Shown one piece after another: positions 1,326 to 21,858 of a stretch of 34,771 nucleotides of DNA (position 1 is the stretch's first letter; the number at the start of each line of letters is the position of its first letter). The DNA is from an uncultured Candidatus Saccharibacteria bacterium (lineage in GTDB: Bacteria > Patescibacteriota > Saccharimonadia > Saccharimonadales > Saccharimonadaceae). The stretch lies in contig CAMYWN010000005.1 of the NCBI GenBank assembly GCA_947302765.1, forward strand, positions 1 to 34,771, read 5' to 3'. Both the position numbers and the translations under genes were made by a program. A model generated the notes under the pieces. It saw only the letters and a program-made list of their open reading frames with translations, was not told the DNA's origin and did no database searches.

Positions 1326-3910
<2,585 letters not shown>

Positions 3911-4415: not shown

Positions 4416-5867
4416 CTAATGTAAGTACTGCCATACGGGCCCATCGGAAGTGTCTTTAACGGTGAACCCGTGAGTCGCCAGCTCATCGCGGATTTCGTCT
4501 GCGCGCGCATAATTCTTTGCAGCGCGTGCCGTTTCACGCTCTGAAACAAGCGCCTGCAGTTCTTCCGAAATAATCGGCGAATCTGCAATCAGGCGCAGTC
4601 CGAATAGCTCATCAATCTTTCCCCAGTCGTCTAGTGATAACTCGGAATTATCGATTAACGCAAACGCTTCCGCCGAGTTCAGGTTGTTATTAATGGCGTC
4701 AAGAACTTGTGTAAGCACCATAGAATTTCCGCCGTCATCTCTTGCGGAAGCGAATATCCGGCTACCCTTTTCTGAAGGGCCTAAGACTCGGGCGAGCGCC
4801 CCGGAGCGGCCCGAAGAAAAGGGTGCCGAATGTTCGCTCTCTGAGGAAAGTTGATATAGCAAAGCAATTCTATTGCGCCAATTGAGCCTGCGGTTTCTAG
4901 CTGCCTCTAGCGACTCGAAAGTGAAGTTCCTTGTCCCCTGATAATGCCCGGATAGCACCCACATTTTATAGTCCATCGGCGAGAACCCTCGCTCAGACAA
5001 ATCGTCTAATGAATAAGTATTCCCAAGCGATTTAGAGATCTTTTCTCCGTCTATGGTGATAAAAGCACAGTGCACCCAATACTTAGCGAGTTCACGGCCG
5101 GTCATAGCGTGCATTTCGGCAATCTCATTGGTGTGATGTACTGGAATATGATCTACTCCCCCAGTATGGATATCAATTGGCTCACTTAGTTCTTTATGAA
5201 TAATGGTGGCGCACTCCAGATGCCATCCTGGGTAGCCTGGCCGGTTAAGGTAATCCCATCGCATCTCATGCTTTTCTCCAGGCTTAATGAACTTCCAGAC
5301 TGCGAAATCGGAAGCATTGCGCTTTTCATCAGAAAATTCAATCCTAGCCCCAGCCTTTAGACCCGACAAATCTAATCTTGCGAAATCGCCATATTCGGGG
5401 AACTTCGAAGTGTCATAATAAACTCCATCAGCCGTTTCATAAGTAAAGCCATTTGCGGTCATAGCATTAACCGCCTCGATGTCCTCCGCAATATAATCCG
5501 TCGCTCTCGCCCAAACGTCGGGCTCTTGCAACTCCAACGCCGTATAATCTTTCTTGAATAAATCAATATAGTGCTCCGCTACTTCAAAAACAGTCTTACC
5601 TTCCCTCTTGGCGCCTTTTTCCATTTTATCTTCACCTTCATCCGCATCGGAAACTAAGTGCCCGACATCGGTAAAATTCATCACACGTTTTACCTTATAG
5701 TCGCTTATCTTAAGCGCTCGGATTAGTAGATCCCAGTAAATATAGGAGGTCAAGTTCCCAATATGTGCTCTAGCATAAACAGTTGGCCCACAAGTATAGA
5801 TTTTTACGACGCCTGAGAGTGGCTTAAAAGTTTCAAGTTTTCTTGTTGCAGTATTATATAATTTCAC
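4416..5867 (-). CDS. cysS: Cysteinyl-tRNA synthetase with a hairpin in-frame insertion; GTG start (VKLYNTATRK)
   Basis: YTCGPTVYARAHIGN, GWHLECATI, GGVDHIPVHHTNEIAE, KISKSLGN. Confidence 0.95.
   Translation of the reverse strand: MKLYNTATRKLETFKPLSGVVKIYTCGPTVYARAHIGNLTSYIYWDLLIRALKISDYKVKRVMNFTDVGHLVSDADEGEDKMEKGAKREGKTVFEVAEHYIDLFKKDYTALELQEPDVWARATDYIAEDIEAVNAMTANGFTYETADGVYYDTSKFPEYGDFARLDLSGLKAGARIEFSDEKRNASDFAVWKFIKPGEKHEMRWDYLNRPGYPGWHLECATIIHKELSEPIDIHTGGVDHIPVHHTNEIAEMHAMTGRELAKYWVHCAFITIDGEKISKSLGNTYSLDDLSERGFSPMDYKMWVLSGHYQGTRNFTFESLEAARNRRLNWRNRIALLYQLSSESEHSAPFSSGRSGALARVLGPSEKGSRIFASARDDGGNSMVLTQVLDAINNNLNSAEAFALIDNSELSLDDWGKIDELFGLRLIADSPIISEELQALVSERETARAAKNYARADEIRDELATHGFTVKDTSDGPVWQYLH
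4750..4837 (-). repeat. Palindromic in-frame insertion within cysS (88 bp, different family)
   Basis: Imperfect terminal IR GCGAATATCCGGCTACCCTTTTCT / revcomp GCGAACATTCGGCACCCTTTTCT around a GC-rich core; encodes about EHSAPFSSGRSGALARVLGPSEKGSRIFAS. Confidence 0.85.
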
Positions 5868-6591
5868 TAATTGTTTCCTCCAGTATAGTTGCAATTTTAG
5901 TATATTTATCCTTGGTAACGCCGTGATGTCCAATTGTGGGGATAGCCTTAAGGTTTTTGTTTTTCTTAATGATACTTGGTATATTATGTGAAGCAATTAT
6001 CCTGTCTTCGGTACCAAAGATTAAAGTGGTGGGGACCTTTATCTCAGCCAAGGTCTGGTAGTTGTCGCGACAGAGTACGATATTCTCCATGGAATTATTG
6101 AAGGCCTTTTCTTTTAAAATCTCAGGATTTTTAGCCCCGAGGACTTTTTTGAACATATCGATTCCCGCCCAAAAAGCTGGATTGTCAAAATCCTTCGGCG
6201 AGTAGATTGGAGGCGAAACCAGAATGAGCTTCTGGATGCTATCATGGTAAGTTTTGGCATATCTCGTGACAATGAAAGTTCCAAGCGAATGCCCGATTAA
6301 TACTATTGGGGTGTCGGTACCTAGTTCAATAATTGCATTATGAAGTGCCTCGATTTGCTCGTCGTAGTTATATTTAAGAGAATCATCTTTCAAAGATTTG
6401 CCCGATCCAAGCAAATCAAACGTCACGAAGCGTACTCCATTGAGGCTTTTCTTAGCCTTAAAATATTCCAAAGCATCATCATACGAAGAGGAGTTGGAAG
6501 CGATCCCATGAATCATCACTACGGTCAAAACTGGCGAATCGGTATTAGAGCGATCATTGGTTTTTTCTAAAGTCAATTCATTCTTTTTCAT
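5854..6591 (-). CDS. Alpha/beta-fold hydrolase
   Basis: VVMIHGIASNSSSYD, GHSLGT nucleophile elbow, FGTEDRI, IGHHG. Confidence 0.85.
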   Translation of the reverse strand: MKKNELTLEKTNDRSNTDSPVLTVVMIHGIASNSSSYDDALEYFKAKKSLNGVRFVTFDLLGSGKSLKDDSLKYNYDEQIEALHNAIIELGTDTPIVLIGHSLGTFIVTRYAKTYHDSIQKLILVSPPIYSPKDFDNPAFWAGIDMFKKVLGAKNPEILKEKAFNNSMENIVLCRDNYQTLAEIKVPTTLIFGTEDRIIASHNIPSIIKKNKNLKAIPTIGHHGVTKDKYTKIATILEETISEII

Positions 6592-15094: not shown

Positions 15095-16628
15095 TAATTA
15101 CCTCCCCGCCCATTATATCGGACAGCTGTGTTAATGTTTGATCTTGCGCCTGGTTTTCAGGACGCTGATCTTCGCTCGCAATAACTATGTCGCAATTAGG
15201 CCCCAATGCTTCGGTCAGAACTCTTAGATTGTTTTCCCTGGTAAGAATGTTTTTAATAATCCGCCTCATCGGGTAAATTGTGAGTTTATTTTCAAAAAAA
15301 ACGTATTTTGTCTTAGCGAGCTGGGTGTAAATTGAGTCACTTAAGTGCTTGACTTTTTCAAGGTATGAGACCCAGTCAAAGTTTTCGGTCGTAGGGTTTT
15401 GATACTTAGCTTTGCTACTCGTCTCGACCGTAGAGGACGGATTGATGGTATCGCCGGTTTTTGGCATATTGATATTGGGGCTACTCGTAGTTTTTTCTGC
15501 GACGCCTTCAACACTACTACTTTTCGATGGAGCATCTTCAGTTTTATTGTTTTTTCTAATTGAGGCAGAGACCGCAGCGGCTCTAATTGGAGTAGAGACC
15601 GCAGCGGCTCTAATTGGAGTAGAGACCGCAGCGGCTCTAATTGGAGTAGAGACCGCAGCAACTCGTTGCGCTGCTGGCTCGGAGATAGTGTGATTTGTCG
15701 CCACACCAGTCGGCTGTAGAGCTACAAGCAATCTAGCCTCGGCATACGGGGCCTTAACGTCTAGAAGACGAGGCAGCAAGGTCATAAACTCCGTTTTTGG
15801 ATTGGCTAAAATTGTAGAGATGAGTTCAGCTGTAACCGTCTCTGCTTTGATTCCTCCAAGCAATAATTCGTTAAAGAGATTATTCATCGATACGGCATCG
15901 TTGTTAAGGTAAGAGTCCAAGAGCGAAGCGATAATCTCCTCGTCTGGGAGCCCCAGCGCACTAATAATCATTTCTTTTGTGATAGTTTTGTCAGATATTG
16001 CGCTGATTTGATCAAGCAAAGAAAGCGAATCACGAAACGACCCACCGCCTTTTTTTACAACAACACCGAGCGCGTCATCGTCAATATCTATTTTTTCTTG
16101 CCTTGCGACGTTTTTTAGGTAAGAAAACATAGTTTTTTGATCGGCCAATTTAAAACTATAAGATTGCGCTCTAGACGTAATCGTTACAGGGACTTTATGA
16201 GCGTCAGTTGTTGCCATAATAAAGATAACATGGGCCGGCGGCTCTTCAAGTATCTTAAGAAGCGCATTAAAGGCTTCTTTGGTTAGCATATGGACTTCAT
16301 CGATAATATAGATCTTGTACTTGCCGTTAGTTGGAGCAATCATAGCCTTATCGCGCAGCTCCCGGATGTTATCGATGCCACGATTAGACGCACCATCGAT
16401 TTCAATAATATCAACGTAGTTATCCTCTAGTTGATAATCAAAGCCATTAACCGCATGAGCTAAAATTCTAGCGACACTCGTTTTGCCACAACCTCTTGGC
16501 CCAATCAGTAGATAAGCATGATTAATCTTTCCATTCTTTAACGCATTAATTAATGGCTTTGTCACCTGTTCCTGTCCAACAACGTCCTCCAATTTGATAG
16601 GACGATACCTCCTATATAGACTCTTCAT
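15069..16628 (-). CDS. dnaX: DNA polymerase III gamma/tau subunit lacking the Cys4 zinc module
   Basis: LLIGPRGCGKTSVARILAHA, IYIIDEVHMLTKEAFNALLKILEEPP; TATAAT-N6-ATG. Confidence 0.95.
   Translation of the reverse strand: MKSLYRRYRPIKLEDVVGQEQVTKPLINALKNGKINHAYLLIGPRGCGKTSVARILAHAVNGFDYQLEDNYVDIIEIDGASNRGIDNIRELRDKAMIAPTNGKYKIYIIDEVHMLTKEAFNALLKILEEPPAHVIFIMATTDAHKVPVTITSRAQSYSFKLADQKTMFSYLKNVARQEKIDIDDDALGVVVKKGGGSFRDSLSLLDQISAISDKTITKEMIISALGLPDEEIIASLLDSYLNNDAVSMNNLFNELLLGGIKAETVTAELISTILANPKTEFMTLLPRLLDVKAPYAEARLLVALQPTGVATNHTISEPAAQRVAAVSTPIRAAAVSTPIRAAAVSTPIRAAAVSASIRKNNKTEDAPSKSSSVEGVAEKTTSSPNINMPKTGDTINPSSTVETSSKAKYQNPTTENFDWVSYLEKVKHLSDSIYTQLAKTKYVFFENKLTIYPMRRIIKNILTRENNLRVLTEALGPNCDIVIASEDQRPENQAQDQTLTQLSDIMGGEVISDAGNNPF
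15559..15666 (-). repeat. 27-bp tandem repeat, ~4 copies, encoding RAAAVSTPI-type 9-aa repeats in the DnaX linker
   Basis: ATTGGAGTAGAGACCGCAGCGGCTCTA repeated in tandem with near-identical copies. Confidence 0.95.
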
Positions 16629-21699: not shown

Positions 21700-21746
21700 G
21701 GGCGGGTGACGCCGCCGGGGGAAGTATGCGGCGACAGGACCCGCCC
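21700..21746. repeat. Palindromic element family A, short form (47 bp)
   Basis: GGGCGGGTGAC…CAGGACCCGCCC ends of family A with a different inner hairpin GCCGC…GCGGC. Confidence 0.88.
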
Positions 21747-21772: not shown

Positions 21773-21858
21773 GGGCGGGTGACGGGTCTGGAGGGGTCCC
21801 CAAAAGATTTTGCATCAGCAAAATTTTTGGGGAGGAGAAGACCCGGCAGGACCCGCCC
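21773..21858. repeat. Palindromic element family A, copy 3 (86 bp, just downstream of rplA)
   Basis: Nearly identical to copy 1 except the loop tetranucleotide (ATCA vs GAGA). Confidence 0.95.

Follow-up and report, generated by a model that had tools for sequence, protein, structure and literature searches.

The cysS palindrome and its surroundings

The window, by which we mean the whole 34,771-nucleotide stretch of Saccharibacteria DNA analysed here, carries on its minus strand a cysS gene that encodes cysteinyl-tRNA synthetase and contains a palindromic insert. The features of this gene, together with those of two neighbouring palindrome families, are as follows:

4416–5870, minus strand: host gene cysS, cysteinyl-tRNA synthetase (Pfam; AlphaFold2)
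4749–4838, minus strand: entire palindrome of 90 bp (30 codons), in frame in cysS (fold and arm analysis; orthologues without it)
4809–4838, minus strand: 5′ arm in the cysS sense, copy-specific (arm analysis)
4782–4808, minus strand: conserved apical core CGCTCCGGGGCGCTCGCCCGAGTCTTA (exact family pattern match; 135 distinct core copies)
4749–4781, minus strand: 3′ arm, almost complementary to its 5′ counterpart (arm analysis)
2058–2277, plus strand: second palindromic family (F type), in frame in queA (conserved module at four places in the genome)
2565–2650, plus strand: D1 (third family), one copy at the beginning of tgt (nine copies in the genome)
3255–3340, plus strand: D1 copy in frame within tgt (D1 family search)
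21773–21858, plus strand: intergenic D1 copy (D1 family search)

The original prediction had reported an 88-bp palindrome at 4750–4837, and the structure proved to be real, with a maximal extent one base longer on each side (4749–4838; 90 bp, near-perfect). Its arms had been said to differ mostly by G·U-compatible mismatches, which applies to a single G·U pair, the other imperfections being one C·A mismatch and one 1-nt bulge. Folding of the RNA of the cysS-sense (minus) strand yielded –52.6 kcal/mol, as compared to –29.9 ± 3.5 for shuffled sequences (z = –6.5; 0/200 shuffles).

That the insertion lies in frame was borne out by the encoded protein, which is intact and matches both the Pfam tRNA-synt_1e family (CysRS catalytic domain; E = 5e-79) and CysS_C, with the palindrome located in the linker preceding the C-terminal domains. 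In the AlphaFold2 model, which is mostly confident elsewhere, insert residues ~346–381 have a pLDDT below 50 (as do residues 73–79 and 172–178), and the insert, with peptide sequence SEHSAPFSSGRSGALARVLGPSEKGSRIFA, is predicted to form a disordered loop joining two helices. Comparison with the CysS orthologues of relatives, as had been proposed, revealed that those of other genomes of the genus lack the palindrome and have a short variable linker after the conserved ...WRNRIA..YQ. At this same point, a comparable but different insert is present in the CysS of genome G005, and a further copy of the element at locus L158. The arms of the cysS copy did not match any host sequence that could be compared.

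The surroundings had been described as holding three unrelated hairpin families. Three families, including those in tgt and queA, are indeed present, but "unrelated" is too strong, because some cysS-type copies share a terminal module with the tgt-type element. Specifically, the base module GGGTCCTGNC...GNCACCC occurs near the base of at least 15 of the 88 cysS-type-core copies of the genus and also bounds the D1 element, while the queA-type element follows the same plan of conserved modules spaced by variable complementary stems. A shorter palindrome (window 21700–21746), which has the same base module (GGGCGGGTGAC...GACAGGACCCGCCC) and a different interior, directly precedes the D1 copy that starts at 21773, and elsewhere in the genome D1-type modules form a tandem or nested array (L288; G000:C73). 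The window further contains, at 15555–15662, 27-bp tandem repeats within dnaX (tau/gamma subunit) that encode AAAVSTPIR repeats in a linker.

A dispersed family with a conserved tip

A genome-wide search confirmed that the cysS palindrome belongs to a dispersed repeat family, with three copies in this genome (in cysS, in frame in a UvrD/PcrA-type helicase gene [L003], and at a site near the 16S rRNA [L002]). Within the genus, which comprises gut Saccharibacteria, 48 of 147 genomes gave matches, far above chance. The L002 copy (L002:46-180; G000:C60) precedes the 16S rRNA 5′ end by ~25 nt and probably lies inside the rRNA leader transcript. A special tie to tRNA-related genes did not hold up, since copies were also found in the genes for UvrD, DNA polymerase I, LigA and MurB, and in intergenic regions.

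With a strict core pattern, at least 112 stretches were retrieved from the GTDB species set, Saccharibacteria predominating. Among the matches listed, Kaiserbacteria, Paceibacterota, Parcubacteria, Peregrinibacteria and four Bifidobacteriaceae contigs were represented in addition, and Rickettsia was not. When the phylum was sampled evenly, the core pattern was matched in 4 of 287 genomes, belonging to two genera, and a reversed control pattern in none. The Bifidobacteriaceae loci (L133, L136, L153 and L187) carry the exact core, accompanied in L133, L136 and L187 by long arms. Because Actinobacteria are known hosts of Saccharibacteria, transfer of the core between Bifidobacteriaceae and Saccharibacteria is possible.

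Alignment of the copies brought out the main point absent from the original prediction: what is conserved is the apical tip alone, each copy having arms of its own. Copies agree in the 27-nt apical core (CGCTCNNGGSCGCTHGSCCRAGTCTTA) at an identity of 0.92, and the consensus common to 135 distinct copies reads CGCTCNNGGSCGCTHGSCCRAG(T)CTTA. Within it, 80 copies have the inner stem GGGC/GCCC and 55 have GGCC/GGCC, which constitutes a compensatory change, and the stem is mispaired in none of the 135, even though the search pattern permitted mispairs. More than 12 nt away from the core, by contrast, the left arms of different copies are only 0.41 identical, which is also the complementarity obtained after swapping arm partners between copies, whereas arms of the same copy are complementary at 0.71; in 126 of 156 copies arm complementarity exceeds the 95th percentile of such swaps. 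Some young-looking copies (L105, L124, L167) have perfect or near-perfect arms of 25–45 bp that are unique to their site, and two copies within one genome (L067 and L069 of G069) have near-identical inner elements with differing outer arms of 6–9 bp. Many copies, among them L065, L085, L115 and L116, have one unpaired purine in the 5′ arm, ~13–16 nt from the core, and this is possibly a conserved recognition feature.

This architecture bears on the known classes of small dispersed palindromes, which the family resembles in size and dispersal. It might be of the REP/RAYT type, mobilised by a Y1 (TnpA_REP) transposase, of which this genome indeed encodes one full-length domain (L299; G000:C66:3430-3786), or it might be a MITE of the classical sort, with conserved inverted repeats at its ends and a duplicated target site. 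However, Y1_Tnp (PF01797) was found in just 4 of 100 genomes of the genus, as opposed to about a third for the element. Moreover, the element ends are not conserved (the base module being shared by a subset, at least 15 of 88 copies), and direct repeats at the edges (4 of 155, with about 2 expected) show no excess. Since REP/RAYT elements and MITEs thus differ from the present family in Y1 distribution, in ends and target duplication, and in that sites here are mostly genic, we regard an origin of this kind as most improbable.

A link to reverse transcriptases was also considered and rejected, as RVT_1 occurs in 61 of 100 genomes of the genus, among them 21 of the 35 element-bearing ones, amounting to no association. 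Searches for a viral carrier yielded no match in the phage collection and 0 matches in viral contigs.

Copies within genes and their translation

Defining a spanning ORF as one that extends at least 20 codons beyond both element ends, we found 60 of the 88 genus copies to lie within such an ORF, 34 of them antisense and 26 sense, with several frames being read. The core frame that begins with a TAA stop is not used by any exact 27-nt core in a gene. The remaining 28 copies were compared with a limited collected set of homologues, against which the same homologue appeared on both sides of one copy only (L046, at the N-terminal end of miaA), and there both sides lie on the same strand, so that no frame-breaking insertion was detected among the 88 copies. 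Host genes include those for TGT, QueA, TrmD, TsaD, MiaA, IleRS, LigA, DNA polymerase I and MurB, most names having been assigned from conserved sequence in the translations, without database search. Empty orthologous sites were found for CysS, TrmD (20 orthologues), TsaD, IleRS, QueA and ArgRS pairs.

Because the copies in genes were seen only in frame and free of stops, translation most likely runs through the whole mRNA without a break. The use of both orientations and several frames likewise argues for read-through by the ribosome, and suggests that the amino-acid sequence itself is unimportant. In light of the modelled CysS, the insert peptide is most likely tolerated as a floppy surface loop. 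The family shows the behaviour of protein-coding palindromic elements of the RPE/WPE kind, being a dispersed palindrome of ~100 bp in several unrelated genes, in frame, stop-free and missing from orthologues.

It is surprising that a stem of about –50 kcal/mol should be carried by essential mRNAs, and, if it is neither removed nor unfolded, this counts against a translated insert. The hairpin might instead be spliced from the message or bypassed by the ribosome and hence remain untranslated. Programmed bypassing has an example in Magnusiomyces mitochondria, and known bypass elements are comparable in size to the cysS-type palindrome, which, like the presence of such a stable hairpin within essential genes, would favour this explanation. 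An open frame would then be dispensable, however, yet all 60 in-gene copies are stop-free, no clear frame-breaker was found, and even a decayed copy in trmD (L238) is still in frame. Removal or bypass of the hairpin therefore seems very unlikely to us.

Alternatively, the element could be a functional structured RNA, such as a processing site or a terminator-like or regulatory hairpin, that is selected at the RNA level and uses the core as a putative binding site. The compensatory inner stem and paired outer stems would fit such a role, as would the presence of the core in Bifidobacterium and several Patescibacteria, partly outside long ORFs. Nevertheless, no Rfam match covered the element at gathering score, a relaxed search returned only sub-threshold hits of microRNA or sRNA type at hairpins, and the element is missing from the orthologous genes of most relatives. 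As the mixture of antisense and sense copies within genes is moreover hardly compatible with an mRNA element, we consider an RNA function unlikely.

The TrmD loop and the origin of the arms

A natural experiment is offered by one loop of TrmD, between AR.FA and HYIILCPHYEG, which we followed in all 174 available genomes of the genus (TrmD being present in 158). The loop is empty in 20 short orthologues, and in most of the best 30 of 158 hits it is filled by palindromes of at least four core families; because the ranking of these 30 followed their similarity to a query that itself carried an insert, the filled share is not an estimate of frequency. Filled and empty states are scattered over a poorly resolved TrmD tree, from which insertions cannot be counted. 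At least three further palindrome families (E, F and G) were observed among the TrmD inserts L239–L265, an apical CCCGTCGCCACGGG being common to E and F, and the insert of L112 is flanked by a 7-bp direct repeat.

When scored with 9-nt words, the 3′ arm was found to carry an inverted copy (at least 8/9 nt) of the host codons preceding the insertion in 10 of 30 filled TrmD genes, where 0.07 were expected, and in L247 as many as 21 nt of host sequence are mirrored in the arm. The case for host-templated arms draws in the main on TrmD as a gene and on E as a core family, and not on the cysS copy. In addition, the core is inverted between L255 and L257, supported sisters on the TrmD tree (identity 0.87 when inverted versus 0.63 as is), and between L247 and L242 (0.91 versus 0.61). 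Finally, L236, L237 and L238 share one insert, of which L238 keeps the arms and the frame while its core has decayed.

The reading that we favour, with a probability of roughly 0.7, is that the palindrome in cysS represents a copy of a dispersed element of non-protein-coding origin, whose arms are repaired and extended by template switching and which is kept if it can be translated. Such an element would insert selfishly into many genes and gaps and be retained only when translatable, the apical core being the part recognised by a putative mobility machinery. Switching of the DNA polymerase between the arms as templates (quasipalindrome correction) would keep these complementary and, after insertion, may also lengthen them into the flanking gene and flip the core. 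Insertions would then decay in place to ordinary linker codons, as may be under way in the TrmD of L238. In yeast, template switching homogenises inverted-repeat arms and inverts spacers in coding genes (PMC8604942), and it has been proposed to create and maintain RNA hairpins (PMC8794818). What is seen in TrmD, with arms made alike and lengthened and the middle inverted, resembles these systems, which differ in being a mutational process rather than an element and leave the spread of the core unexplained (PMC8604942, PMC8794818).

The inverted repeat might also be made by the insertion itself, in that the core, alone or with the inner stem, would move as a single-stranded hairpin and prime snap-back synthesis on its target, so that the arms of each copy would be a new inverted duplicate of its insertion site. 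This course would account for the site-unique arms of L105, L124 and L167, for the differing outer arms around the near-identical interiors of L067 and L069, and for the mirrored host codons in TrmD. On the other hand, several orthologous gene pairs match only a few arm bases to the host, the inherited TrmD insert of L236 and L237 has arms without clear extension into host codons, and later template switching, a known process, accounts for the same facts. As our sample comprises one genome per species, arm duplication at insertion and later template switching look alike in it; the former is possible, although we lean against it. More doubtful, and put forward tentatively, is the notion of a minimal mobile element that has the ~27-nt tip as its sole hereditary part, copies its stems from the target strand on insertion, is common to Saccharibacteria, other Patescibacteria and Bifidobacterium, and seeds new protein loops.

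Relation to known coding palindromes

Saccharibacteria are host-dependent and have small genomes. The closest parallels by description are the Rickettsia palindromic elements (RPE), dispersed palindromes of ~100 bp that interrupt conserved protein genes in frame, lie also in gaps and within or next to RNA genes (Ogata et al. 2000/2002), and are described as having 12-bp terminal inverted repeats as a family trait (PMC2229807). Palindrome size, in-frame sites, gaps, the vicinity of RNA genes and small-genome, host-dependent bacteria are shared with the present family (PMC2229807). In contrast to the terminal inverted repeats described there, only an apical core is conserved here, with site-specific arms that partly mirror host codons (TrmD); the phylum differs as well, and the likeness drawn here is one of description. 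WPE-like inserts in addA, addB and priA of Wolbachia are in-frame palindromes, mostly without premature stops (PMC4224334), and resemble ours in lying in informational genes of, in this case, a different organism, the comparison being one of behaviour. Long inverted repeats within coding genes are likewise known from Nematomorpha mitochondria, where, by the summary of that work, each of the two arms codes for conserved protein regions and a mobile core is not mentioned (PMC6649704), whereas here the palindromes are extra sequence in variable loops.

By analogy of behaviour, the element thus appears to belong with the protein-coding palindromes of Rickettsia and Wolbachia, standing apart in its conserved tip and in arms that are not conserved and would partly be host-templated. 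In a literature search whose coverage left out most subscription journals, nothing published on comparable elements in Patescibacteria was found.

Until now, protein-coding palindromes have been an oddity confined to Rickettsia, Wolbachia and a small number of other cases. In the present phylum, whose genomes are reduced, essential translation genes are invaded by several palindrome families, at loops that are used repeatedly (TrmD, CysS, QueA, TGT, IleRS). Because empty, full, inverted and decayed states are found within one genus, both spread without an obvious transposase and insertion followed by template switching as a source of protein loops become testable.
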